Assembly (NCBI RefSeq): GCF_001458415.1 | Contig: NZ_CYSD01000021.1 | Coordinates: 62,001-126,000, forward strand | Source: Tritonibacter multivorans | Lineage (GTDB): Bacteria; Pseudomonadota; Alphaproteobacteria; Rhodobacterales; Rhodobacteraceae | Direction of reading: 5' to 3' | DNA length: 64,000 nucleotides | Shown here: piece by piece, positions 20,415-33,674 of the stretch | How positions within the stretch are numbered: the first letter of the stretch is position 1 | How the letters are laid out: every line of letters begins with the position of its first letter | Notes under the pieces: model-generated | The model's database searches: none | What the model saw: only the letters and a program-made list of their open reading frames with translations | Told to the model about the DNA's origin: nothing | Position numbers and translations under genes: made by a program

Positions 20415-20522
20415 TCATAGATGTTTCCGCCAAGAAGCATTTGACCTTCGCCGTCCCACGTGGCTGAGTGTCGCGCGACGGAAGACAGCCCGTGTAAAAA
20501 GGGCAAACGAGGGGTGCAGGAC

Positions 20523-21350
20523 ATGCTTGATTTTGGAACTTTGCTGCCGCTTCTGGCGGTGGCCGCGGCGTCAGGTGTTGTCGGCGGCGTGCTGGCTGGG
20601 CTGTTGGGCGTTGGCGGCGGCATTGTCATTGTTCCTGCGCTTTACTTTGCCCTGTCTCTCAGCGGGATGGACCCGGCACTGACCATGCAGGTGGCGGTGG
20701 GGACATCACTGGCGACAATCGTCTTCACCTCGCTGTCGTCCAGCTGGGGGCATTACCAGAAGGGCGCGATTGACATGGGGCTTCTCCGTCTCTGGGCGCC
20801 AGCGATCCTTGTGGGCGTGGGCATCGGCGGGATCCTGGGCGGTGTCGTGTCCGGCTACGTGCTGATGGCGGTCTTTGCCACAGTGGCGCTGGCAGTGGCC
20901 ATCGACATGGTGTTGCGCAAACCAAAGACCGAGGTCGCAGCGCGCAGCTTTTCGCGCCCGGTCTGGGCCGGTCTGGGTGTCTTTGCCGGTGGCGTCTCCG
21001 CCATGATGGGGATTGGCGGCGGCACGGTCTGTGTGCCAGCGCTCAGCTTCCTTGGGTATGACATCCGCAAGGCCGTGGGCACTTCAGCGGCGATTGGTTT
21101 TGTCATCGGCCTGCCCGGCGCGCTGATCTATATGGCCACGGGGCTTGGCACCGAAGGGCTGCCGCCGTTTTCGTTCGGATATGTGAACCTGCTCTTGGCG
21201 GCGGTGATCATCCCATTGTCGACCACCTTTGCCCGCGTCGGCGTGAAGATCGCACATGCCATCCCGCCGCGGGCGCTGAAGCTGTGCTTTGGCCTGTTCC
21301 TTGCCATCACCTCGCTGCGGATGTTTGCCGACCTCTTTGGCGTGGTTTAA
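20523..21350 (+). CDS. TauE/SafE-family sulfite or sulfonate exporter
   Basis: A 275-residue membrane protein with about eight helices in two related halves, each with the TauE/SafE glycine motif (GLLGVGGGIVIVPAL near residue 28 and GIGGGTVCVPALSF near residue 160). The family exports sulfite, sulfoacetate or related anions and is common beside sulfonate degradation genes. ATG 20523 is chosen because the domain begins directly after it. Its stop overlaps the end of the convergent peroxidase gene. It could dispose of sulfite made by the monooxygenase at 28190-29344, but it is not in the same operon. Confidence 0.82.
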   Translation: MLDFGTLLPLLAVAAASGVVGGVLAGLLGVGGGIVIVPALYFALSLSGMDPALTMQVAVGTSLATIVFTSLSSSWGHYQKGAIDMGLLRLWAPAILVGVGIGGILGGVVSGYVLMAVFATVALAVAIDMVLRKPKTEVAARSFSRPVWAGLGVFAGGVSAMMGIGGGTVCVPALSFLGYDIRKAVGTSAAIGFVIGLPGALIYMATGLGTEGLPPFSFGYVNLLLAAVIIPLSTTFARVGVKIAHAIPPRALKLCFGLFLAITSLRMFADLFGVV

Positions 21351-22663
21351 GGGCGGTCTACCGGCAGGCCGGACGGCACGCTGTCGGGCACGCCAAAAGG
21401 CGGGTTGGTGACGCTGTCCGTACCGGTGAGGCTATGGAGGAAGGCCACAAGCGACGCGATCTCCGCATCGGTCCGCGCCGGGATAAAGATATCCCGCTTG
21501 GCGGCTTGACGCGTCATTTCGAACCGGTCATTGCGCACCATAAAGTCCACCGGTTGCAGCCACGGCACCTCTGGCAGGATCGGCATGTCGGTGGTCCAGT
21601 CCGCCCGCGCGGCGTCGGGGTCAAGGTGATGGCGGATCATCTCCTCGAGCGTGCGATACGCGCCATTGTGGCCGTAAGGCGCTGTCAGCGCGATATTTCT
21701 AAGCGCAGGTGTTTTAAACCGATAGGCATCCTCCAGCGCATCGCTTTCGCCCATACGGCCCACATCGCGGGCAATCAGATCAAATTTACGCGTGCGCCCG
21801 GGGCCAAAGGCTGGAAGGCCAAGGGCGTGGAATTTCAGGTCCGAGAACCGCGCGCCCGCGTGGCATCCCGAACAGCCTGCCGCTCCAAAGAACAGCTCTG
21901 CACCCGCCCGCGCCTGCCCGCTCAGCGCGTCTGTGTCACCTGCAAGGAAAGCATCAAAGGGACTGTCAAAACTGCGAAATTCCAAAGACATAAACGCCGC
22001 CAAAGAATTGGCAATTTCAACAATCGTGACCTCTTCGGGTTTGCTGATGTGATCAAAGGCCGCGACAAACATCGGGCCATACTCCGCGTTGACGCGCACC
22101 CGTTTGGCGATGATCGGCCAGCCCTTGTCGATCCGGTCAAACACCGCGCCCGCGACCTCGTTTTCCTCGGTGCCACCGGCCATTTCGCGCTCGGACGCCA
22201 TCGGGAACAGGGCCTGGGCGGCGAGGACAGAGTTGAGCCCCGGCGGCAGCCATTCCTCGGCGGGCGTATTGAAGCCATTGCCATAGATCGGATCGCGGGA
22301 GATGCGGCCGTCATGCATGACCACATGGACCTCGGACGCGCCCAAATTCCACAGCGCCGGCGCATTGCGCGGCACCCGGCGTTCAATGCGGCTGTGGCCT
22401 GTGCCGCCGGTGCGTGTGGGGCCCAGCCCGACACCGCCTTCACCAATGCCAAGCGATGTCCCATCGGACGAGCCAAAGGCGGGGTGATGGCAGGTTGCGC
22501 AGCTGATATTTCTGTTCCCGGACAGGATTTTATCATAAAACAGCAACTGACCAATGGCCGCCTGTTTGGCGTCGACGGGGAGGAAATCCGCAGGCCCAAG
22601 CGCCGGGGGATACTCCGTCGCCAGCGCAGGTGCCGCCATGCACGCCCCAAGGAGGAGACCCAC
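21347..22663 (-). CDS. dihaem cytochrome c peroxidase (MauG/CcpA family)
   Basis: About 438 residues. Two CXXCH haem sites are visible, CATCH (near residue 65) and CSGCH (near residue 275), in the order and spacing of dihaem peroxidases, with SNRNISCATCHHPAFGSSDG-like context and a C-terminal APYGHNGAYRTLEEMIRHH block. It is expected in the periplasm, reducing hydrogen peroxide or modifying a substrate. The start is uncertain: a GTG at 22663 gives a short signal-like leader (LLLGACMAAPALA) but has no good ribosome site; an ATG 24 bases downstream gives none. If GTG is right, only three bases separate it from the divergent Sel1 gene. Confidence 0.82.
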   Translation of the reverse strand: MGLLLGACMAAPALATEYPPALGPADFLPVDAKQAAIGQLLFYDKILSGNRNISCATCHHPAFGSSDGTSLGIGEGGVGLGPTRTGGTGHSRIERRVPRNAPALWNLGASEVHVVMHDGRISRDPIYGNGFNTPAEEWLPPGLNSVLAAQALFPMASEREMAGGTEENEVAGAVFDRIDKGWPIIAKRVRVNAEYGPMFVAAFDHISKPEEVTIVEIANSLAAFMSLEFRSFDSPFDAFLAGDTDALSGQARAGAELFFGAAGCSGCHAGARFSDLKFHALGLPAFGPGRTRKFDLIARDVGRMGESDALEDAYRFKTPALRNIALTAPYGHNGAYRTLEEMIRHHLDPDAARADWTTDMPILPEVPWLQPVDFMVRNDRFEMTRQAAKRDIFIPARTDAEIASLVAFLHSLTGTDSVTNPPFGVPDSVPSGLPVDRP

Positions 22664-22666
22664 CCA

Positions 22667-23143
22667 ATGCGCACGCTGTTGACCGCTGCCGTTCTGACCC
22701 TTGCGCCGCTTGCTGCGACCGCCGAGATTGAGGTGGCCCGCGACCTGATGGAGGCCGGAGACTACAAGGCGGCTTATGATGCGTTTCTGCCCGCCGCCAA
22801 ATCCGGCAATGCCGACGCGGAAGAGCTGATCGGCGTGCTCTATGCCCTTGGACTGGGTGTGGAACGCGACGATGAACGCGCGTTTGAGTGGTACCTGCGC
22901 AGCGCCATGAAGGGGCATCCGGGTGCGCAATCTGGCGTTGGCTGGTACTACGAGGTTGGACGTGGCCTGCCCGCCCCGGACCTGACCCGTGCTTACATGT
23001 GGTACACGCTGTCCGCGATCGGCGGCGACCCGGATGCGGCGATCAGCCTGGAAGAGGTGGTCAAAAAGATGACCCCGGCGCAGATTGAAAAAGCGCATAT
23101 CCTTGTCTCCGATTACAAGGGCTGGATGTACCCGTTCCACTGA
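22667..23143 (+). CDS. Sel1-repeat (TPR-like) exported protein
   Basis: A 158-residue protein with signal peptide (MRTLLTAAVLTLAPLAATA) and about three Sel1-like repeats: DYKAAYDAFLPAAKSGNADAEELIG, DERAFEWYLRSAMKGHPGAQSGVG and LTRAYMWYTLSAIGGDPDA. Such repeats form solenoids for protein contacts. AAGGAGGAG directly upstream fixes the ATG. It is divergent from the cytochrome c peroxidase with essentially no gap, so each promoter must lie within the other gene. Function unknown. Confidence 0.82.
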   Translation: MRTLLTAAVLTLAPLAATAEIEVARDLMEAGDYKAAYDAFLPAAKSGNADAEELIGVLYALGLGVERDDERAFEWYLRSAMKGHPGAQSGVGWYYEVGRGLPAPDLTRAYMWYTLSAIGGDPDAAISLEEVVKKMTPAQIEKAHILVSDYKGWMYPFH

Positions 23144-23182: not shown

Positions 23183-23509
23183 TCAGCGAGAGCGGCGATC
23201 CGGCACCTCGAGGTCATAGACCAGAATGCCGTCCGCTCCCCCGGTACACAGCGCGCACAGCCGCGCACCAAGCGCACGATGGGTTGGGTGTTCGGCGTAT
23301 TCCGCTAAGGCATCCGCATCCCGGAAGCGGAGCACGAACCCGTGGCTGTAGCCTTGTGTTTTCTGTTCAAAATCGCGGTTCGGGCCGAATTCGGCACTCA
23401 AACAGCGCCGCAGGCTCATGGCAAAATCGCGCAGCTCTGACAAAATGGCCTGCCGCTGGGCGGCTGTCGCCGCATCCGAGAAATTGCAGAATACACAATG
23501 CAGGATCAT
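23183..23509 (-). CDS. Dabb (stress-responsive A/B barrel) domain protein
   Basis: A 108-residue protein starting MILHCVFCNF with the ferredoxin-like alpha/beta pattern of the Dabb family (GYSHGFVLRFRDADALAEYAEHPTHRAL is the typical second half, with the HP-x-H motif). The family forms dimeric barrels, some of them enzymes, many unknown. It lies downstream of dctP on the same strand but after a strong terminator, so it is probably a separate unit. It is convergent with the Sel1 gene. Confidence 0.78.
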   Translation of the reverse strand: MILHCVFCNFSDAATAAQRQAILSELRDFAMSLRRCLSAEFGPNRDFEQKTQGYSHGFVLRFRDADALAEYAEHPTHRALGARLCALCTGGADGILVYDLEVPDRRSR

Positions 23510-23599: not shown

Positions 23600-24661
23600 T
23601 TAGTTCAGGTCTTTTGCCAGATCGGCACCAATTTCAGCTTCGGCTTCGGCAACGGCCTCTGTCAGCGCAGTGAAGATTTCATCACCGCGGGACACATTGG
23701 ACTTGAACCAGTCGTAAACCGGCGTTGCGGCCTCTTTGAAGGCTGCTTTTTGCGCCGGTGTCGGCACATAAAGATCACCACCGCCTGCGACGAATTCTTC
23801 GTAAGCTGCAATGGACTTACGCTTCGGGGACGCAAAAGTTGCCTGCTGCAGGGCGTAGAAGCCGTCCACAACCACGCGGCGCATGTCTTCGGGCATCGCC
23901 ATGAAGTTCTGGTTGGACATCCACCACATTGCGCCCATGTAGGCGTGGCCGTCGAGGGTGACATACTTCAGGCCGGCATCGGGGAATTTCATGCCCATGA
24001 TGTCGGTGATGCCGTTCTTGGAGCCTTCAACAACGCCAGTCTGGAAGGAGGTGAAGAGTTCCGGCCACGGGATCGGGGTCGGCGATGCCCCTAGCGCTTT
24101 GACGAGTTCCTGCGGCAGGTCGGCAACCACGGTGCGAATCTTCAGACCTTCCATGTCCGAAGGCTCTGCGATGCGGCGTTTGGTGTTGGCGAAGTTGCGC
24201 CAGCCGCCGGTGTTGCCGATGGTCATCAGACGGATGGTGTCGCCGGAATCTTCCAACGCCATGTCACGCATTGTGCGGGTGAATTCGCCGGACAGGACGG
24301 ATTCTGCGATCCGGTCATCAGACATCAAATAGGGCAGATCCATAACCTGCACATAGGGGAACAGGCCCGCTGCACCCGAGGAGGTGGACACAAAGACGTC
24401 AATGGAGCCGTCCGCCACGCCTTGCAGACACTCTGCGCCGTTGGAGCACAGCTGGGTGCCGATGAACAGCTCAACCTCGATCGCGCCGTTGGAGGCCGCT
24501 TCGACGTAGTTTTTGAACACAACGAGACCGTCATAGTCTTCGTCGTTTTCGTTGGAGTTTGCGGTGGCACGGATCTTGTAGTCCGCAGCCGTCGCAGCAG
24601 TCAGCGCGGTGCCTGCCATCATGGCCGCCAGTGCGGCGGTTTTCAAAGCCTTTTTGAGCAT
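23600..24661 (-). CDS. dctP: TRAP transporter solute-binding protein (DctP family)
   Basis: A 353-residue periplasmic protein with signal peptide (ends TALTAATAA) and the DctP fold: FKNYVEAASNGAIEVELFIG, GLKIRTVVADLPQELVKALGASPTPIPWPEL with the conserved Arg that binds the ligand's anionic group, and FQTGVVEGSKNGITDI. It captures an anionic solute for DctQM. The operon lies directly downstream of the smoCBA-like genes, so the ligand may be sulfoquinovose or its glyceride; this is inference, since TRAP proteins of known specificity mostly bind carboxylates and some sulfonates. Confidence 0.93.
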   Translation of the reverse strand: MLKKALKTAALAAMMAGTALTAATAADYKIRATANSNENDEDYDGLVVFKNYVEAASNGAIEVELFIGTQLCSNGAECLQGVADGSIDVFVSTSSGAAGLFPYVQVMDLPYLMSDDRIAESVLSGEFTRTMRDMALEDSGDTIRLMTIGNTGGWRNFANTKRRIAEPSDMEGLKIRTVVADLPQELVKALGASPTPIPWPELFTSFQTGVVEGSKNGITDIMGMKFPDAGLKYVTLDGHAYMGAMWWMSNQNFMAMPEDMRRVVVDGFYALQQATFASPKRKSIAAYEEFVAGGGDLYVPTPAQKAAFKEAATPVYDWFKSNVSRGDEIFTALTEAVAEAEAEIGADLAKDLN

Positions 24662-24687
24662 GGTTTTCCTCCCTTAAGCTCTTCTTC

Positions 24688-25977
24688 TTAGTTCACGAAC
24701 CCGGTGATGCGCGGGATCGTCATGGAAATGGCTGGAATGAAAGTGATCAGGAAAATCACAATGATTTCAACAGCCAAAAACGGCAAAATTGCACGTGCAA
24801 TCGTCGTAACCCGTTCACCGGACACAGCTGACGCAACGAAAAGCACCAGTCCCATGGGCGGTGTGGCCAGACCAACGGTCAGGTTGACACACATGATGAT
24901 TGCGAAATGCACAGAGTCGACGCCAAGGCTGGTGAACACCGGCCCCAAAATCGGCCCCAGAATAATGATGGCCGGGCCCGCATCGAGGAACATACCGACC
25001 ACGAACAACAAGAGGTTGATCAGGAACAGCAGCAGAAGCGGGTTCTCGGTCAGGGTCAGGATGAACTCTGCCAGATGCTCGGGCGCGTGCGACAGCGACA
25101 CCACGGTCTTGAAGGACATCGCCGCGCCAACCAGCAGCAGCACCACGGCCGAGGTCAGACCGGCGCGCGCCAGCACGTCAGGCAGTTCGGACACCCGCAG
25201 GGTCTTCAGCACAAACAGACCAATCACCAGCGCGTATGCCACAGCAATTGCCGCTGCCTCGGTTGGTGTAAAGATGCCCGCAAGGATACCACCCAGAATG
25301 ATGACGGGTGTCATCAGCGGGAAGAACGCCTTGAGGCTCGCCTGACCGCGTTCACCCCAAGTGTAGCGGCGCGAAGCGACCGGGAAGTCGTAGCGGTCTG
25401 CCATCACCTTGACCATGAACATCAGGCCAAGGCCAACCATGACACCAGGCACAATGCCCGCAAGGAACAGCGCCGCGACGCTTTCGCCCATGACGTAAGC
25501 GTAGATGATCATAATGCCCGAGGGCGGAATGATCGGACCAATCACGGAGCTGGCCGCGGTGATCGCAGCGGCGAATTTACGGGAATAGCCCTGCTTCTCC
25601 ATCGCCGGGATCAGCATCGACCCCAGAGCGGATGTGTCTGCCACAGCCGACCCCGAAAGACCCGCAAACAGCATCGACGACAGCACGTTCACATGCGCCA
25701 GACCACCGCGCAGGTGGCCCATCAGGGCTTGGGCAAATTCGACCAGCCGCAGGGTGATGCCACCGCGGTTCATCAGCTCGCCTGCGAGCATAAAGAACGG
25801 GATCGCCATCAGCGGGAAGCTGTCCATCCCGTTGTAAAGGTTGCGGTACAGCAGCGTGATGTCGCGCTCTTGGCCGTTCAGCCACAACAGGAAGCCGGGC
25901 GCGGCCAGCAGGCCAAAGAACACCGGCAGGCCGATCATCAGAAGGACCAGAAAGACAGGAAGGAACCAGATCAGCAT
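24688..25977 (-). CDS. dctM: TRAP transporter large permease (DctM family)
   Basis: A 429-residue protein with about twelve transmembrane segments. Family blocks: FFMLAGELMNRGGITLRLVEFA, GLSGSAVADTSALGSMLIPAM, FTPTEAAAIAVAYALVIG and VNLTVGLATPPMGLVLFVAS. It is the sodium-driven translocating subunit. Its ATG overlaps the dctQ stop by one base (TAATG), and dctP begins 26 bases after its stop. Confidence 0.96.
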   Translation of the reverse strand: MLIWFLPVFLVLLMIGLPVFFGLLAAPGFLLWLNGQERDITLLYRNLYNGMDSFPLMAIPFFMLAGELMNRGGITLRLVEFAQALMGHLRGGLAHVNVLSSMLFAGLSGSAVADTSALGSMLIPAMEKQGYSRKFAAAITAASSVIGPIIPPSGIMIIYAYVMGESVAALFLAGIVPGVMVGLGLMFMVKVMADRYDFPVASRRYTWGERGQASLKAFFPLMTPVIILGGILAGIFTPTEAAAIAVAYALVIGLFVLKTLRVSELPDVLARAGLTSAVVLLLVGAAMSFKTVVSLSHAPEHLAEFILTLTENPLLLLFLINLLLFVVGMFLDAGPAIIILGPILGPVFTSLGVDSVHFAIIMCVNLTVGLATPPMGLVLFVASAVSGERVTTIARAILPFLAVEIIVIFLITFIPAISMTIPRITGFVN

Positions 25978-26567
25978 TATTCAGCACCTCCGACTTCGGC
26001 TGCATCAAGAGACGGCAGGGCATCATCCCCACCCAGAAGCGAGACGATCCGGTGCAGGATCAGTTCAATATTCACAAGGATCAGCAGCGCGATGCCGACC
26101 AGAAGGGACCACATCATCCACGACCGTGGCACGCGGTACCAGTCGTCAAAGCCAAAGGATGTGGGCACATAAAGCGATGCGGTGGCGAAACGGCCGCCAA
26201 TGCCGGTGACTTCCTTATAGCCGATCTGCACACCCACGGTCAGAACCGTGAGCGAGACCGCCAGCAGGAACAGCATCAGGACGCTGAAGGCGCGTTTCGG
26301 GAGCGCCGCTGTCACAGTGTCAATCGCAGCAAAACCGCCCTGACGGAACGCGGTGGGCGCCATCAGACCGGTCATCCAAAGCATGCAGAAACGCGCCGCC
26401 TCGTCTGGCCAAGGGAGCGCGTTGTTCAGAACATAGCGGAAAAAGACCTGCACAAGGATCGCAACAACCATCGCGGCCACGGCCACGACTCCGATCCACC
26501 TGCCAATTCGCAGCAGCGTGCCATTCACCCAATACAGCAGTGTCACCACCGCCATCAGTGCCTTCAT
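25977..26567 (-). CDS. dctQ: TRAP transporter small permease (DctQ family)
   Basis: A 196-residue protein with four hydrophobic helices and the DctQ pattern (QVFFRYVLNNALPWPDEAARFCMLWMTGLMAPTAFRQGG). ATG 26567 has GGAGGAAG at ideal spacing; a farther in-frame start at 26654 runs through the leader and is rejected. First gene of dctQMP, 199 bases after the flavin reductase gene, with only a modest hairpin between, so read-through from the monooxygenase operon is likely. Confidence 0.92.
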   Translation of the reverse strand: MKALMAVVTLLYWVNGTLLRIGRWIGVVAVAAMVVAILVQVFFRYVLNNALPWPDEAARFCMLWMTGLMAPTAFRQGGFAAIDTVTAALPKRAFSVLMLFLLAVSLTVLTVGVQIGYKEVTGIGGRFATASLYVPTSFGFDDWYRVPRSWMMWSLLVGIALLILVNIELILHRIVSLLGGDDALPSLDAAEVGGAE

Positions 26568-26646
26568 ATTGTCTTCCTCCCACGGCCCCGGCCCTGCCTG
26601 ATCACAGCATGGGCCACTCCGCACAGTATTTTTCTCTTTCGCCACC

Positions 26647-26665
26647 CCCGCCAAGACCTGGCGGG
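26647..26665 (-). repeat. stem-loop between flavin reductase gene and dctQ
   Basis: CCCGCCA (26647-26653) and TGGCGGG (26659-26665), loop AGACC. It has no T-run on the minus strand, so it is an mRNA processing or attenuating hairpin rather than a full terminator. Confidence 0.45.
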
Positions 26666-26766
26666 AGCGGCGTGTTTAGGTGGCCCTTTTGCGGATCACA
26701 ATCCCCGATTGGCACCAGTGTTCGCGTCTGGAACCAAAGGGTTGGATCACGGGCTTCTCAACGGGA

Positions 26767-27285
26767 TCAGCTGCCGGTGAATTGGCCGATCTGACCTTTG
26801 AAAAAGGCCAGCGCGTCTCCCTCTTCGCGCATTTCCGCCCGGTTTACGGTGCCCAGAACAATGGTGTGATCACCACCGTCATAGACAGCCTTCCGGGTGC
26901 ATTCGAAACGCGCCAGGCAGTTTTCAAGGACCGGCACACCTTCGGCATTTTTGGCCAGATCCATGGACCGCAGGCCATAGACGTCTTTGGCCACCTGCCA
27001 GCACAGATCGCTCTGCTCGGTTGCCAGCACGTGGATGGCGTAATGTTCGGCCGCATCGAAATAGGGGAAACGGCGCGAATTGCGGTCGGGCGACCACAGA
27101 ACCATCGGCGGTGTCAGCGACACGGAGGAAAAGCTGTTGGCGGTGATCGCCACCACACCCTCGGGCGTGTTGGCGGTCACGATGGTCACCCCGGTTGCGA
27201 AACGCCCAAAGGCGTCGCGCAACAGGCGGGTGTTGCTTTCATCCGGTACAAAGGCAGTGCTGCTGTTTGGCATATCCAGTCCCAT
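26767..27285 (-). CDS. smoA: FMN reductase of a two-component monooxygenase (SmoA-like)
   Basis: A 172-residue flavin reductase of the split-barrel family: LLRDAFGRFATGVTIVTA, ITANSFSSVSLTPPMVLWSPDRNSR, and HTIVLGTVNRAE near the end. Such proteins reduce FMN with NAD(P)H and hand it to a monooxygenase. It lies 14 bases after the aldo-keto reductase gene in the run monooxygenase-AKR-reductase. This set matches smoC-smoB-smoA of oxidative sulfoquinovose desulfurization in Agrobacterium. The family call is secure; the gene name is inferred from the trio. Confidence 0.72.
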   Translation of the reverse strand: MGLDMPNSSTAFVPDESNTRLLRDAFGRFATGVTIVTANTPEGVVAITANSFSSVSLTPPMVLWSPDRNSRRFPYFDAAEHYAIHVLATEQSDLCWQVAKDVYGLRSMDLAKNAEGVPVLENCLARFECTRKAVYDGGDHTIVLGTVNRAEMREEGDALAFFKGQIGQFTGS

Positions 27286-27299
27286 GTCAGTGCTCTCCC

Positions 27300-28190
27300 T
27301 TAGGGAACCTCGGTGCCCAGAGCCGCCTCATAGAGGAGGTACCAGGTTTCGCGGTCCAGCTCGACTTTCAGCGCATCGGAGATCTTCTTGATGCGGTCGA
27401 TATTGTTGGTGCCCAGAACCGGCAGGATTTTCGCCGGGTGACGCAGCAGGAAGGCCACGGCCACAGCGGCGCGGTCCACACCTTGGGCGGCGGCGATGGT
27501 GTCCAGACGGGTTGCAAGTTCACTGTCCCCGGTCATCAGGCTGCCACCACCAAGCGGGGACCACGCCATCAGCGCGTCGCCATTTTTCTGGTGGAAGGCC
27601 AGATCGCCATTGGTGAAGGGGGAAATCTCGCCCAGCGAAATCTCGATCTGGTTGGTCGCCAGTTTGGTCGACATCGCAGATTGCAGCAGATCCCAGTCAT
27701 AGGGGCGGAAGTTCGACACGCCGACGGATTTGACCTTGCCAGATTTGACCAGATCATCCAGCGTCGCGCCGGTCTCATGATGGTCCATCAGCGGGTCCGG
27801 GCGGTGGATCAGCAAGAGGTCAATCTGCTCGATGCCCATCTCGGTCAGCGAGGTTTCAACCGACTTCTCAATGTGGGCCCGAGAAGTGTCGTAGTATTTG
27901 ACCTTCGCGTCAGAATAGCGACCGCAGGGCGCGACGATGTCGCATTTGGTCACGATTTCCATCTTCTCGCGCAGGGACGGGTTGGCCTTCAGCGCGCCGC
28001 CAAGGATCGCTTCGGCACCGTAGTCGCCGTAGATATCCGCTTGGTCAAAGGTAGTGATGCCTTGTTCAAGGCAGGCGTTGATCTTGGCTTCAACGGTGGC
28101 GGGCGACGTGTCTTCCACGTCCCCAATGCGCCACATGCCATAGACAAGGCGGCTGAAATCCAGATCGTCGTTTAGTTTAATACGGTCCAT
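27300..28190 (-). CDS. smoB: aldo-keto reductase (SmoB-like, 6-oxo-glucose reductase candidate)
   Basis: A 296-residue (beta-alpha)8 aldo-keto reductase starting MDRIKLNDDLDFSRLVYGMWRI. The catalytic tetrad is visible: Asp near 49 (TTFDQADIYG), Tyr54, Lys82 (VTKCDI) and His129 (LLLIHRPDP); the NADPH-binding end is LPVLGTNNIDRIKK. In the known sulfoquinovose monooxygenase route the AKR SmoB reduces 6-oxo-glucose to glucose. The ATG overlaps the upstream monooxygenase stop (TAATG). Alternative: a general YdhF-like reductase, but the coupling to a sulfonate-type monooxygenase argues for the pathway role. Confidence 0.72.
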   Translation of the reverse strand: MDRIKLNDDLDFSRLVYGMWRIGDVEDTSPATVEAKINACLEQGITTFDQADIYGDYGAEAILGGALKANPSLREKMEIVTKCDIVAPCGRYSDAKVKYYDTSRAHIEKSVETSLTEMGIEQIDLLLIHRPDPLMDHHETGATLDDLVKSGKVKSVGVSNFRPYDWDLLQSAMSTKLATNQIEISLGEISPFTNGDLAFHQKNGDALMAWSPLGGGSLMTGDSELATRLDTIAAAQGVDRAAVAVAFLLRHPAKILPVLGTNNIDRIKKISDALKVELDRETWYLLYEAALGTEVP

Positions 28191-29344
28191 TAGCGGCGAA
28201 CTCCTACGCCAAGGGGTGTTTCCGGGGTGCTTGCGGGCACGCGGCCATAGGCCTCGGGCAGCGAGCATGTTTTCAGGTTCGGCAGAATGCGGGCGCCGAA
28301 ATGTTTGGCTTCCTCGAGGTGGGGATAGCCAGAGAAGATAAAGGCGCGCATGCCCATCTTCTGGTATTCTTCGATCTTGGACATGACCTGATCAGTCGAG
28401 CCAACCAGCGCCGCACCACAGCCAGAGCGCGCACGGCCAACGCCGGTCCAGAGGTTCGGCTCGATGTAGCCGAAGTCATCCGCGTTGTCGCGGTTTTTCG
28501 CCTGATGGCTGACGCCAAGGGATTTTGCATCCAGCGCGCGTTCGCGGATCGCGGTGCCCTGCTCATCATCCAGTTTGGAGACGATGTATTCGGCGTATTC
28601 TTTCGCCTCGGCCTCGGTGTCGCGCACGATCATGTGGACGCGCAGACCGTAGTCCAGCGTGCGGTCGTATTTCTCGGCGACCGCGTTGACGGCTTTCATC
28701 CGGCCTGCCAGCTCTTCTTTTTTCTCCGGCCACATCAGGTAGACGTCGCAGTGCTGACCACACAGCTCCAGCGCATCGGGGGAGTAGCCACCAAAATACA
28801 GCAGCGGGCCGCCGGTCTGATAGGGGCGCACGGGGTCGGTTGTCAGACCTTTGAAGTTATAAACTTCGCCTTCGTAGTTGATCTCGTCCTGAGTCCAGGC
28901 CTGCTTCAGGATCTCCACCACTTCGCGGGAGCGCTGGTAGCGGTAGGGGCTGGGCTCTTTCTGACCGGGGAAGTCAGAGGAGATGATATTGACGGTCAGG
29001 CGACCTTCGAGCATGTGGTCGAGCGTCGCCAGCGTGCGTGCCAGCATGATCGGTTGCATTTCGCCGCAGCGCACAGCCGCCAGAAGGTTGATCTTGTCGG
29101 TGATCGGCGCACAGCCGGACACAAAGGACAGCGTGTCCTGACCCACCTGATAGGAGGACGGGCACAGAATGTTGCGGAAGCCTTGCTTTTCGGCCTCTTT
29201 CACGATGTTTGAACAATGCGCCCAGGAAGACCGCAGATCCCCATCCGGCACACCCAGAAACTGGTAGTCATCCGAGCACAGCGCAGCGAACCAGGACACC
29301 TCAGCGGCGTCAAGATCAGGGGATGTAATAGGGACGACGGTCAT
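28190..29344 (-). CDS. smoC: FMNH2-dependent sulfonate monooxygenase (SmoC-like, sulfoquinovose monooxygenase candidate)
   Basis: A 384-residue luciferase-like monooxygenase of the SsuD (alkanesulfonate) group: DLRSSWAHCSNIVKEAEKQGF, PIMLARTLATLDHMLEGRLTVNIIS, PYRYQRSREVVEILKQAW, PLLYFGGYSPDALELC and the C-terminal VGSTDQVMSKIEEYQKMGMRAFIFSGYPHLEEA. These enzymes use reduced flavin and oxygen to cleave a C-S bond, releasing sulfite and an aldehyde. Directly coupled to an AKR and a flavin reductase, the smo arrangement, rather than to ssuABC. First gene of the minus-strand operon, divergent from a GntR regulator. Confidence 0.72.
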   Translation of the reverse strand: MTVVPITSPDLDAAEVSWFAALCSDDYQFLGVPDGDLRSSWAHCSNIVKEAEKQGFRNILCPSSYQVGQDTLSFVSGCAPITDKINLLAAVRCGEMQPIMLARTLATLDHMLEGRLTVNIISSDFPGQKEPSPYRYQRSREVVEILKQAWTQDEINYEGEVYNFKGLTTDPVRPYQTGGPLLYFGGYSPDALELCGQHCDVYLMWPEKKEELAGRMKAVNAVAEKYDRTLDYGLRVHMIVRDTEAEAKEYAEYIVSKLDDEQGTAIRERALDAKSLGVSHQAKNRDNADDFGYIEPNLWTGVGRARSGCGAALVGSTDQVMSKIEEYQKMGMRAFIFSGYPHLEEAKHFGARILPNLKTCSLPEAYGRVPASTPETPLGVGVRR

Positions 29345-29403
29345 AATGTTGCTCTCCTGCCGAGTCTTGCAATTTCTTCTTGCGTAGCAGCAGAATTAAA
29401 GTA

Positions 29404-29421
29404 CATCAATGGTGCATCAAT
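29404..29421. promoter_or_regulatory. direct repeat in the smoC-gntR divergent region
   Basis: CATCAAT occurs at 29404-29410 and again at 29415-29421, one helical turn apart, in the short AT-rich interval between the divergent genes. Candidate binding site of the GntR/UTRA regulator. Confidence 0.35.
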
Positions 29422-29459
29422 TTTTTTCCGCACAAAAAACGGGCGACCCCGGACCGCTT

Positions 29460-30254
29460 ATGGACAAAGACAGTAATACTGATCCTGCCGCCGTCGAGGC
29501 AGGACTTGACACGCGGCAGCAAGAAAGCCTGCACAGCGGCGTTCAGGGCGGCATCCAAGGCGCACCCACCGCGCTGCCCATTTACATGCAGATTTCAGAG
29601 TTTCTGATCCGGGAAATCGCCGCTGGCCGTCTGGTCGACGGCGAACGCCTGCCGCCCGAACGGGAGCTCGCAAAGAGCCACGGAACCACCGTGCGCACCC
29701 TGCGCAAGGCCCTGTCCGAGCTCGAGAAAAAAGGCCTTCTGGAACGGGTTCAGGGATCGGGCAACTATGTGCGCGCCAGCACCGCCCCCGAAAGCATCTA
29801 TGCGATGTTCCGGCTGGAGCTGACTACTGGCGGCGGCCTGCCAACCGCAGACATCCTGTCAGCAGCAGAGGCCGCAAAACCCAGCGACCTGCCCAATTTC
29901 GGCACCTCGGACCGCGGCTTTCGGTTCCGCCGCCTGCGCTATTTGAACCGCGTTCCAATCGCGGTCGAGGAAATCTGGCTGGATTGCGACGCGGGGTCAC
30001 TGGACCTCGGCGACATGTCCGATTCGCTTTACCGGAGCTATCAGCTGCAACTTGGCCTGCGAATCTTACGCGCCGAAGACCGCGTTGGCATTGGCTCTGT
30101 GCCCGAATGGGCCCCGAACACCTTTGGCAAGGCGCCCCACGCGCCTGTCGGATATATCGAACGCTTCAGCTGGGCCGATGGACCGGTGCCGGTGGAGTTT
30201 TCGCGCACCTGGTATGACACAGACAAAGCACTTTATGTGCAACGACTGATTTAG
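29460..30254 (+). CDS. GntR-family regulator with UTRA effector domain
   Basis: About 264 residues. The winged helix is PIYMQISEFLIREIAAGRLVDGERLPPERELAKSHGTTVRTLRKAL (seen in parts around residues 40-105), followed by a chorismate-lyase-like UTRA domain (FRFRRLRYLNRVPIAVEEIWLD, SLYRSYQLQLGLRI, APVGYIERFSWADG). UTRA regulators usually sense sugars or sugar phosphates. The start is uncertain: ATG 29460 or ATG 29409, neither with a good ribosome site; 29409 sits inside the direct repeat, so 29460 is preferred. It is divergent from smoCBA-like genes and 9 bases upstream of a Gfo/Idh/MocA gene, making it the likely regulator of both sides. Confidence 0.85.
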   Translation: MDKDSNTDPAAVEAGLDTRQQESLHSGVQGGIQGAPTALPIYMQISEFLIREIAAGRLVDGERLPPERELAKSHGTTVRTLRKALSELEKKGLLERVQGSGNYVRASTAPESIYAMFRLELTTGGGLPTADILSAAEAAKPSDLPNFGTSDRGFRFRRLRYLNRVPIAVEEIWLDCDAGSLDLGDMSDSLYRSYQLQLGLRILRAEDRVGIGSVPEWAPNTFGKAPHAPVGYIERFSWADGPVPVEFSRTWYDTDKALYVQRLI

Positions 30255-30263
30255 GAGAAAGAC

Positions 30264-31370
30264 GTGTCCAAAATCACCAATTACGGCATCATCGGCTGCG
30301 GCATGATGGGCCAGGAACACCTGCGCAATATCGCACTTCTGGACGGCACCCGCGTGTCGGCGATCTTTGAACCCGATGCGGGCATGGTGGCCGAATGCAA
30401 AAAATTCGCCCCCGAGGCCGAATATGTCGACAGCGTAGAGGCGCTGCTGGAGGTTGCGGATCTGGATTGTATCCTGATCGCCAGCCCCAACTTCCGCCAC
30501 GTGGAGCAGCTAGAGGCGCTGGCCGCCAAACGCCCCCTGCCCGTTCTGGTCGAAAAGCCGCTGTTCACCGATCCGTCCCATGTTGCGCGCCTGGAAGAGT
30601 TCCGCGCCAACTACCCCGCACCGGTCTGGGTGGCGATGGAATATCGCTACATGCCCCCCGTTGCGACCCTGGTGAACGAAGCCGAAGACGCCACCGGCGG
30701 CATCAAGATGCTGACCATCCGCGAGCACCGCTTCCCGTTTCTGGAAAAGGTTGGCGACTGGAACCGCTTCAACCGCTACACCGGTGGCACCTTTGTGGAG
30801 AAATGCTGCCACTTCTTCGACCTGATGCGCCTGACGCTGAAGGCCGAACCGATCCGCGTTCTCGCATCCGGTGCGATGGATGTGAACCACGTCGATGAGG
30901 CTTACGAGGGTGAAACGCCTGATATCCTCGACAATGGTTATGTGATCGTGGATTTCGAAGGCGGCGCGCGCGCGATGCTGGAGCTGTGCATGTTCGCAGA
31001 AGGCTCGCGGTATCAGGAAGAGATTTCCGCTGTGGGTCCCAACGGCAAGATCGAAGCGCTGGTGCCCGGACCGGGCCGTTTCTGGCCAGAGCATCTGGGC
31101 GAAGCACCCGTGCCGCAGGTCATCGTCTCGCCGCGCGATCCCAAAGGTCCCGAGGTCCGCGACATTCCCGTCGATCCGACCATTCTGGAAGCGGGCGACC
31201 ACAATGGCTCGACCTTCTACCAGCACAAAGGCTTCCTTGAGCTGGTGCGCGGCGAACGCGACGTGCCCGAAGTGTCCCTGAAAGACGGCCAGCTGGCGGT
31301 TCTGATGGGCATGGCGGCGCAGATTTCCATGAAAGAACATCGCGCGGTGGAGCTGAAAGAGCTGATGTAA
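30264..31370 (+). CDS. Gfo/Idh/MocA-family NAD-dependent protein, candidate sulfoquinovosidase
   Basis: A 368-residue protein with an N-terminal Rossmann fold (GIIGCGMMGQEHL, residues 8-20), the VEKPL motif (96-100) and the C-terminal Gfo/Idh sheet domain. The motif GGTFVEKCCHFFD (174-186) keeps the His of the usual active-site block but has Glu-Lys where dehydrogenases commonly have Asp-x. GTG start with AGGAGAAA just upstream. It is cotranscribed with the GntR gene, opposite the smoCBA-like operon. Some members of this fold are NAD+-dependent glycosidases, including sulfoquinovosidases; since no GH31 sulfoquinovosidase is present here, this protein may liberate sulfoquinovose. A plain sugar dehydrogenase remains possible. 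Confidence 0.7.
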   Translation: MSKITNYGIIGCGMMGQEHLRNIALLDGTRVSAIFEPDAGMVAECKKFAPEAEYVDSVEALLEVADLDCILIASPNFRHVEQLEALAAKRPLPVLVEKPLFTDPSHVARLEEFRANYPAPVWVAMEYRYMPPVATLVNEAEDATGGIKMLTIREHRFPFLEKVGDWNRFNRYTGGTFVEKCCHFFDLMRLTLKAEPIRVLASGAMDVNHVDEAYEGETPDILDNGYVIVDFEGGARAMLELCMFAEGSRYQEEISAVGPNGKIEALVPGPGRFWPEHLGEAPVPQVIVSPRDPKGPEVRDIPVDPTILEAGDHNGSTFYQHKGFLELVRGERDVPEVSLKDGQLAVLMGMAAQISMKEHRAVELKELM

Positions 31371-32610: not shown

Positions 32611-33576
32611 TCAACGGTTGACCAAATAATTCCTTGCGCCGATCAGGCCGAAGTTTGGCTGATGGTACAGGTGCAAAGGCAGTTCCTGACGCCAGCCGGT
32701 ATGGCGGCCACCTGCGTTGAAGGCCGCAACAAAGGCCTCATCAAACATCCACGGGTTCGCCGCTGCCACGCCGCCGGTCACAAACACGCCGCCCTTGGCC
32801 GCGAAGACGAGGCCGAGGTCCCCGGCGACACCGGCCAAATACCGCGCGAAGAGTTCAACTGCGCGCATCGCTGCAGTGTCGAGCTTGGCCTTGGCGGCCT
32901 CAAAGATATCTGCCCCATTGTCCAGCGGCGCGGTCAAATCCATAGATTTTGCAACCGCACGGTAAAACAACGGCAGGCCGGTGCCCGACAGGATCGCCTC
33001 GGCTTCCACAATCAGGCCCTCGCCCATGCCCACCTCGGGCCATTCGTCCCGCATGGCTTTGAAAATCGGCACCTCTTCGGGCGTGCGCGGGCCTAGCGCC
33101 ACATGGCCGCCCTCACCCGGAACCACGCAAGGCACATCGCCTGCCCAGACCAGCGCGCCAACGCCAAGGCCGGTGCCGGGGCCAAGGATCAGGCAGGGGT
33201 CTTTCGGAAATTCTGCCTTACCCTGCAGGGTGGTCACATCCTCGGGGCCAACGGTCGCCAACGACCAGGCTGCGGCCTCAAAATCATTCAATACTTTGAC
33301 GGATGCGCCGGCCAGAGCCTGCGACAGAGAGGTCTCAGAAAAACTTTGATTGTCGGCATTTGTCAGCTGAACTGCGCCGTCTTTGACCACGCCCGCAGCA
33401 GCAATCACGGCACGGGCAGGCATGGAACCACGGCTGTTTGCGAATTGCACACAGGCCGCTTCGAGCGTCATCTCGCCCTTGGTTTGGAACCGCTCCTGCG
33501 TCAGGATCTCCCCCTCGGCGGAGACCTCGGCCAGACGCATATTTGTGCCGCCTACATCGGCGATCAGGTTCCACAT
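32611..33576 (-). CDS. glk: glucokinase
   Basis: A 321-residue enzyme, the length of E. coli Glk. Seen: phosphate-binding LIADVGGTNMRLAEV at the N-terminus, KVLNDFEAAAWSL with the catalytic Asp, LGPGTGLGVGALV, VVPGEGGHVALGP and GGVFVTGGVAAANPW. It phosphorylates intracellular glucose with ATP. ATG 33576 is preceded by GGAG at six bases; in-frame ATGs at 33588 and 33636 lack one. It stands alone with its own promoter, carrying a half-conserved copy of the pgi palindrome. It feeds the pgi-zwf-edd-eda route and would take up glucose released from xyloside/glucoside or sulfoquinovose breakdown. Confidence 0.95.
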   Translation of the reverse strand: MWNLIADVGGTNMRLAEVSAEGEILTQERFQTKGEMTLEAACVQFANSRGSMPARAVIAAAGVVKDGAVQLTNADNQSFSETSLSQALAGASVKVLNDFEAAAWSLATVGPEDVTTLQGKAEFPKDPCLILGPGTGLGVGALVWAGDVPCVVPGEGGHVALGPRTPEEVPIFKAMRDEWPEVGMGEGLIVEAEAILSGTGLPLFYRAVAKSMDLTAPLDNGADIFEAAKAKLDTAAMRAVELFARYLAGVAGDLGLVFAAKGGVFVTGGVAAANPWMFDEAFVAAFNAGGRHTGWRQELPLHLYHQPNFGLIGARNYLVNR

Positions 33577-33674
33577 GTCATTCTCCATCAACTGCGCACG
33601 CGGTGTGCCCCCGCGATCTTGGCCTGCTTTTGACATGGGCGCGCAGCACCGTGCAAGAGCGGCTTCGCGCGAAT

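Follow-up and report, generated by a model that had tools for sequence, protein, structure and literature searches.

A probable sulfoquinovose operon with a TRAP importer and a GH188 sulfoquinovosidase in Tritonibacter multivorans

Which substrate is handled by a divergent gene block of Tritonibacter multivorans, and how does this substrate enter the cell? The block lies in a stretch of 64,000 nucleotides (contig NZ_CYSD01000021.1), herein called the window, and all positions refer to this whole stretch. The minus strand carries, between 29344 and 23600, the genes smoC (monooxygenase), smoB (aldo-keto reductase), smoA (flavin reductase), dctQ, dctM and dctP in this order, the last three for a tripartite ATP-independent periplasmic (TRAP) importer. 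A GntR/UTRA regulator gene and a Gfo/Idh/MocA gene diverge from them on the plus strand. All these genes were confirmed to be present and intact (Table 1), with a TAATG at 28190-28192 where the smoC stop overlaps the smoB start, as the initial annotation had described. That annotation proposed desulfurization of sulfoquinovose (SQ), a plant sugar that contains sulfur, and the analysis agrees: the block is very probably a sulfolytic SQ operon of the sulfoquinovose monooxygenase (sulfo-SMO) kind, served by a TRAP importer. The sulfo-SMO (smo) pathway of Agrobacterium was reportedly presented by Sharma et al. in 2022. It is described in the available passages of PMC9594981 and PMC12890257. The SmoC, SmoB and SmoA chemistry, which turns SQ into glucose and sulfite, would be alike in both systems.

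The monooxygenase was compared with the PDB by phmmer. The scores were 684 bits to 7olf and 683 bits to 7oh2 (288 and 293 identical positions of 383, respectively), and the next ones were 191 bits (7jv3, MsuD-type) and 182 bits (SsuD, 1m41/1nqk). Stretches of the protein such as SSYQVGQD, RCGEMQP and SGCGAA, in which it differs from SsuD/MsuD, recur only in the SmoC chains. A placement in the SsuD group had been named beforehand as the result that would overturn the proposal. An operon of the SsuD/MsuD type, which would scavenge sulfur by desulfonating alkanesulfonates, would share with the smo genes the luciferase-like monooxygenase (LLM) fold family, the flavin reductase partner and the cleavage of a C-S bond. 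However, the SsuD/MsuD identity was rejected, with scores below 200 bits to that group; TIGR03565 (SsuD) gave 242.5 bits against a cut-off of 518.2, and all curated SsuD models stayed below half of their cut-offs. Moreover, the aldo-keto reductase and the glycosidase described below have no role in an SsuD system, and such an operon is extremely improbable. The own genome holds a single SmoC match and two matches in all to the LLM family PF00296. By homology, 28190-29344 is predicted to encode a SmoC-type SQ monooxygenase, apart from SsuD/MsuD.

Similarly, the product of 27300-28190, which had been proposed for comparison with SmoB, was closest to a chain that is presumably SmoB. It shares 193 of 295 positions with 7bby and scores 414 bits to 7bbz versus 201 to YdhF. 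The smoB and smoC genes are adjacent and overlapping inside one cluster, and the joint presence of SmoB and SmoC in a cluster serves as the criterion for sulfo-SMO in the available text of PMC13372026. Some points weigh against the enzyme assignments. We take 7oh2 and 7olf to be the SmoC structures of Sharma et al., and 7bby is presumably SmoB; the depositor names of 7olf and 7oh2 are generic (methanesulfonate sulfonatase, alkanesulfonate monooxygenase), and the papers searched confirmed none of these entries. The smoA product matched no curated NCBIfam model above its cut-off, and no recognised SmoA chain stood among its PDB matches. It is assigned as a putative SmoA by its family (PF01613) and its position beside smoB.

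The Gfo/Idh/MocA gene had been guessed to encode an NAD-type glycosidase, and this guess was borne out by homology and by residues. The protein, SqgA, scored 558 bits to 8zn9 (244 of 364 positions identical), 375 bits to 8qc2 and 371 bits to 8qc3, and the next protein scored 69 bits. According to the available text of PMC11465081, 8qc2 is a crystal structure of glycoside hydrolase family 188 (GH188). The published sulfonate triad R166/L170/K172, together with K107, Y136, E189, H193 and H321, is given in the available parts of PMC10755693 and PMC11465081. When SqgA was aligned to 8qc2 and mapped by motif and spacing, R156, L160, K162, K98, Y127, E179, H183 and H313 were all present. By homology, the gene thus encodes an NAD+-dependent sulfoquinovosidase of GH188 in which none of the eight published binding or catalytic residues is missing. 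The Agrobacterium smo system uses a GH31 sulfoquinovosidase instead. No GH31 sulfoquinovosidase match was found in the whole genome by a search that was positive in 6 of 14 control genomes, and SqgA is therefore likely the gateway enzyme.

A Paracoccus degrades sulfofucose according to the available part of PMC12421959, and the identity of a sugar is not fixed by homology. A related sulfosugar or another SQ glycoside, rather than SQ itself, was thus weighed as the substrate, and it is regarded as very unlikely. The closest solved relatives of the three enzymes stand at 65-77% identity, and two of these relatives are presumably SQ enzymes. The third falls into GH188; one member of that family, FlSqgA, showed no activity on the glucosides and the glucuronide offered to it, as stated in the available part of PMC10755693.

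Comparison with the known clusters shows how much of the block is already familiar. The importer and the glycosidase had both been put forward as different from the described set. This holds against the Agrobacterium form, which has an ABC (ATP-binding cassette) importer for SQ-glycerol (PMC9594981, available passages); in place of it the window has TRAP genes and a GntR/UTRA regulator. The glycosidase part does not hold more widely, as GH188 in sulfo-SMO clusters of Roseobacter was already published by Kaur et al. 2023 (PMC10755693, available part). The window belongs to this published group, having the same core and the same glycosidase family. Roseobacter sulfo-SMO clusters were reportedly also treated by Liu et al. 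in 2023. The available text of PMC13372026, citing Liu et al. 2023, describes sulfo-SMO as prevalent both among rhizobial strains and within the Roseobacter clade. What goes beyond the Roseobacter GH188 clusters is the importer census, the operator, the link of TRAP to a sulfo-EMP-like (Embden-Meyerhof-Parnas) cluster and a possible link to soeABC.

Relatives of SqgA were also seen on plasmids of other bacteria. Zymomonas mobilis pZZM402 (33.9 kb) carries a GH188-like gene (44% identity) with a fucose-isomerase-type gene, a class II aldolase, an epimerase, major facilitator superfamily carriers and a TonB receptor; this set resembles an SQ-type cluster, and the host is an ethanol producer. A Burkholderia multivorans plasmid, typed as conjugative, carries a GH188-like gene (49% identity) beside a DeoR regulator, an ABC importer, an epimerase, a short-chain dehydrogenase/reductase and an IlvD/Edd dehydratase. 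The latter set is sulfo-ED-like (Entner-Doudoroff).

The distribution of the cluster was determined in a family sample of 295 genomes (294 genera) drawn evenly. SmoC was present in 124 of them at an E-value threshold of 1e-100; in the class, 21 of 385 genomes had a match at 1e-80, 12 of these at only 49-53% identity. Neighbourhoods were examined for 123 family SmoC loci besides the own window, and GntR was kept in 119, SmoB in 118, SmoA in 107 and SqgA in 114 (107 of the 113 loci with at least 2.5 kb of upstream DNA). The cluster is no chance match, because SmoC occurs in so many family genomes and most of these loci keep its neighbours. An identically annotated TRAP cluster was found on large plasmids of Rhizobium sp. 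SL42, Ruegeria sp. TM1040 and Paracoccus seriniphilus, which indicates that the cluster also occurs outside the family.

The TRAP importer noted earlier proved to be real and conserved. DctP, DctQ and DctM occur together (PF03480, PF04290, PF06808). A census of the 123 loci, which looked for this TRAP and two ABC types, gave TRAP in 71, ABC in 13, none of these in 32, and 7 loci on contigs that were too short; a close dctP was found on another contig in 2 of the 32 and 2 of the 7 genomes. TRAP is the commonest importer in the family SmoC loci, and among the 80 best named loci dctP was carried by 62. The ABC genes stand directly behind smoB/smoA, on the same strand, in 10 of the 13 loci of that class; in L153, L169 and L170 they are further away or on the opposite strand. 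When TRAP or ABC is mapped as a label onto the SmoC tree, 9 changes are required (73 TRAP rows and 13 ABC rows were used, the rest left aside), so the importer seems to be interchangeable at this place.

Two further observations concern the non-TRAP loci. In the ABC-type loci L137, L148 and L205 (L149 is cut short), the importer operon runs on into a GH13 alpha-amylase-family gene, and the ABC system of these loci, four of the ten directly placed, may serve alpha-glucosides and not SQ. Behind smoA, a protein of 300-350 amino acids with no Pfam match at 1e-8 was seen in L128 (6680-7735), L134, L150 and L153, and close by in L136 as well as L139. By its sequence it resembles an alpha/beta hydrolase and might be an esterase acting on acylated SQ glycosides. 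The assignment of this kind of protein (F11) as an EamA transporter was rejected, as it had no BLAST similarity to the EamA protein of L259.

What does the TRAP system carry? DctP orthologues of at least 68% identity were found in 100 of the 295 family genomes, a count that leaves out two further matches at 47-49% identity. They occurred in 76 of 124 genomes with SmoC versus 24 of 171 without a SmoC match. Of these 24, GH188 was present in 22 and lay within 7 kb of dctP in 19 (2.7-6.5 kb), with 11 of them at 5.1-5.3 kb. In 17 of the 19, the linked GH188 was of a distant type (45-55% identity). In three genomes with the distant type (G001, G057, G193), a DeoR-family regulator stands upstream of dctQMP instead of smoCBA. 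Downstream of the TRAP genes of G001 there are genes for a Sel1-repeat protein, a di-haem cytochrome c peroxidase (CCP), a PfkB kinase, a DeoC/LacD aldolase, a fucose-isomerase-type protein, GH188 and a 2-hydroxyacid dehydrogenase. The aldolase scored 306 bits to 8tnf and 64-66 bits to solved sulfofructosephosphate aldolases/YihT, and the fucose-isomerase-type protein had no PDB match.

The locus of G001 resembles the sulfo-EMP-like sets of PMC11465081, which in the available text comprise a fucose isomerase, a sulfofructose (SF) kinase and a sulfofructosephosphate (SFP) aldolase. This SmoC-less family genome (L331, L338) has such a set together with the same TRAP family and GH188. The sets in the available text of PMC11465081 have ABC transporters; in contrast, the SmoC-less locus of the family has TRAP and a DeoR-family regulator. 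After import, sulfo-EMP differs in chemistry from sulfo-SMO, as the sugar is isomerised, phosphorylated and cleaved by an aldolase. CsqR is a DeoR-family protein. It controls the SQ genes of E. coli according to the available part of PMC10991401. In the DctP tree, the three EMP-linked proteins nest inside the SMO-linked ones (SH-aLRT 94, a branch-support value, for the own group, not starred). The same importer stands near the same glycosidase family before two different chemistries, and this, the best evidence, suggests that the TRAP system carries SQ or its glycosides.

Several observations weigh against an SQ-specific TRAP system, and they bear on a second explanation, in which the core is sulfo-SMO, the TRAP genes are mere neighbours with another cargo such as an organic acid, and a different carrier brings in SQ. 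Carboxylates are the usual ligands of TRAP binding proteins in general. The best PDB relative of DctP reached no more than 119 bits, and dctQ begins about 200 nt behind smoA when its start is placed at 26567. In 32 of 123 SmoC loci no importer of this TRAP kind or of the two ABC types was seen, other kinds being outside the search, and TRAP is thus not obligatory. Among the 24 SmoC-less dctP genomes, 5 had no linked GH188. Two of the linked ones, G143 (68%) and G040 (65%), have a GH188 of the SMO type and give no independent support, G040 being a smo cluster without smoC. Only one EMP-type locus (G001) was read through to GH188. Some SmoC-less cases are apparently remnants of smo clusters: G040 keeps sqgA, gntR, the operator, smoB, smoA and TRAP, G126 keeps smoB, smoA and TRAP, and G048 keeps smoA and TRAP. 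These three may reflect decay or the use of another desulfonating enzyme. On the other side, dctP is far commoner with SmoC, 17 genomes that have no SmoC match carry it near a GH188 of the distant type, one of which was read and holds the sulfo-EMP-like set, and ABC genes occupy the same slot in other loci. The neighbour explanation is accordingly rather unlikely, and the TRAP system is predicted to be specific for SQ.

The published record on uptake was also searched. The main texts of PMC10755693 and PMC13372026 (figures and supplements aside) use neither the word TRAP nor the word transporter, and TRAP does not occur in the available passages of PMC12890257. The SQ uptake passages of PMC9594981 and PMC12421959 refer to ABC systems and "various transporters". 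Literature searches joining SQ and TRAP gave no relevant paper by title or start of abstract; an earlier mention in the full texts of Liu 2023 or Sharma 2022 is possible.

The control region between gntR and smoC was then compared over 124 loci, that is, the 123 loci and the window. The consensus is AATTGATACAcyATTGATcTAC...TGcTAcGCAAG. The pattern TTGAT-N6-TTGAT was found in 108 of the 124 loci (118 with one mismatch) versus 0.01 per shuffled set, and it is kept across the importer classes (TRAP 60/71, ABC 12/13, no importer 28/32, short contigs 7/7). The second TTGATG is -35-like and lies 17 nt before TACGCA, which would fit a -10. The operator is the only such site in the window, and no second one for dctQMP was found there; a sigma-70 consensus scan gave 2 sites versus 2.6 expected and was uninformative. 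The conservation of the operator is read directly from the DNA, as are the identities, order and conservation of the genes; binding of GntR at the operator and induction are predictions. The start of gntR is probably at 29460 or later, its exact position being uncertain, because the open reading frame from 29409 begins inside the operator (29401-29420) and annotated homologues keep 102-120 nt between gntR and smoC. The dctQ start is most likely the ATG at 26567 behind GGAGG, rather than the TTG at 26654.

A looser pattern (at most 2 mismatches) was matched in 67 of 120 family genomes, with 3 for the backward control, and the non-smo sites were scattered. The own genome has two further operator-like sites, with 2 and 3 mismatches. 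Single hits of this kind mean little, because about two sites with 3 mismatches are expected by chance in 4.17 Mb. The site at G000 C14:60584 was not accepted as regulation, as it lies behind one gene and before a terminator-like sequence. At that place, as in L259, an EamA permease gene (PF00892) with an FMN-riboswitch-like leader was seen, which is RibN-like by reading.

One of the two further sites of the own genome, however, stands 44 nt upstream of a gene of the PF03601 type (YeiH; in relatives the annotation is putative sulfate exporter). This gene is followed on contig C14 (L315, 4918-16106) by genes for a molybdopterin oxidoreductase, an Fe-S protein and a DmsC-type anchor, which are SoeABC-like. 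These genes adjoin ackA, a TauE-family gene, a gene for an xsc-like thiamine pyrophosphate enzyme and a MocR-type regulator gene. Of the 12 orthologous loci (at least 73% identity, own included), 7 have a like site (AATTGATACACAAATGATGCAC or close) in the corresponding position. Six of the seven have at most one mismatch to TTGAT-N6-TTGAT and one (G681) has two, and SmoC is present in all seven genomes. Among the five orthologues without the site, G689 and G007 have no SmoC match, and G683 has a YeiH gene inside the smo cluster. SmoC is present in G677 and G686, and the stretch examined there showed no YeiH and no TauE. Of the smo loci of 12 genus members, five have YeiH behind the smo genes and four have TauE; L114, of the same genus, also has TauE. 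A regulon link between the smo regulator and yeiH-soeABC is possible, although we lean slightly against it. The genomes with the site are close kin, and the pattern may reflect a single event. The route of sulfite is likewise a prediction.

Taken together, the following pathway is proposed. In the periplasm, DctP would bind either SQ or sulfoquinovosyl glycerol, which DctQM would then import. By homology, SqgA would cut the glycoside in the cytoplasm with catalytic NAD+. SmoA would make reduced flavin mononucleotide (FMNH2), with which SmoC and O2 would split the C-S bond of SQ to sulfite and 6-dehydroglucose, and SmoB would reduce the latter to glucose. The glucose would enter metabolism via glk and the Entner-Doudoroff genes. 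As annotated earlier, glk, pgi, zwf, edd and eda are in the window; the last four are each above the cut-off of curated models, and glk is below its own. Sulfite may be exported or oxidised by the TauE permease beside the cluster and the YeiH-SoeABC-like operon elsewhere. The GntR/UTRA protein would repress its own gene and smoCBA-dctQMP through the double TTGAT over the -35 and would be released by a sugar ligand.

The neighbourhood that recurs with the TRAP genes extends further downstream (Table 1), with Sel1 and CCP/MauG, and in some close relatives with Dabb and TauE too. CCP was found downstream in 39 of 66 TRAP loci with at least 9.5 kb of downstream DNA, versus upstream in 2 of 57 control loci with at least 8.9 kb of upstream DNA; a divergent Sel1 gene was found in 40 of 66. 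Behind smoA, CCP occurred in 4 of 30 importer-less loci and 0 of 11 ABC loci, and it stands after dctP in the EMP-type locus. The role of the CCP/MauG protein is perhaps peroxide removal.

Table 1 Features of the smo region in the window.
Feature	Description	Position	Strand	Evidence
smoC	FMNH2-dependent SQ monooxygenase, LLM family (by homology)	28190-29344	-	76.5% identity to 7oh2, 75.2% to 7olf
smoB	Aldo-keto reductase, proposed for 6-dehydroglucose to glucose	27300-28190	-	65.4% identity to 7bby
smoA	Flavin reductase, predicted to supply FMNH2	26767-27285	-	Flavin_Reduct PF01613
dctQ	TRAP small permease	25977-26567	-	PF04290 (scanned from 26558); ATG at 26567
dctM	TRAP large permease	24688-25977	-	PF06808; TIGR00786 above cut-off
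dctP	TRAP solute-binding protein, proposed binder of SQ or SQ-glycerol	23600-24661	-	PF03480
gntR	GntR/UTRA regulator	29460-30254 (reading frame open from 29409)	+	PF00392 and PF07702
sqgA	GH188 NAD+-dependent sulfoquinovosidase (by homology)	30264-31370	+	67% identity to 8zn9
Putative operator	Conserved TTGATGCACCATTGATGTAC	29401-29420	-	TTGAT-N6-TTGAT conserved across SmoC loci
Conserved element	TGCTACGCAAG	29379-29389	-	Consensus TGcTAcGCAAG over loci
Dabb protein	Stress-responsive A/B barrel protein, associated	23183-23509	-	PF07876; present in a few close relatives
Sel1-repeat protein	TRAP-associated	22667-23143	+	PF08238; 40/66 TRAP loci
CCP/MauG family protein	Di-haem cytochrome c peroxidase, associated	21347-22636 (start approximate)	-	PF03150
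TauE/SafE family permease	Possible sulfite exporter	20460-21350	+	PF01925
glk	Glucokinase-like, proposed entry of the glucose formed	32611-33636	-	Glucokinase models match, all below cut-offs

In its enzymes the window is a usual case of a marine pathway that is widespread and already published, and the importer variant has real support from its linkage in two kinds of cluster. A wider scenario is offered tentatively and is on balance unlikely as a whole. In it, one TRAP family would be the dedicated SQ/SQ-glycerol port of the marine Rhodobacterales, exchanged between sulfo-SMO (GntR) and sulfo-EMP (DeoR) clusters together with GH188 and the periplasmic di-haem peroxidase. In the own lineage, the smo regulator would also command the distant yeiH-soeABC genes, and desulfonation and sulfite disposal would be switched on together. 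If the TRAP system is the SQ port, dctP could be used in ocean data to mark the uptake of SQ, and SQ would have an ion-driven, binding-protein-dependent route into the cell, given the energetics of TRAP systems. An importer shared by two pathways would show that SQ pathways are built from exchangeable modules of import, glycosidase and cleavage.

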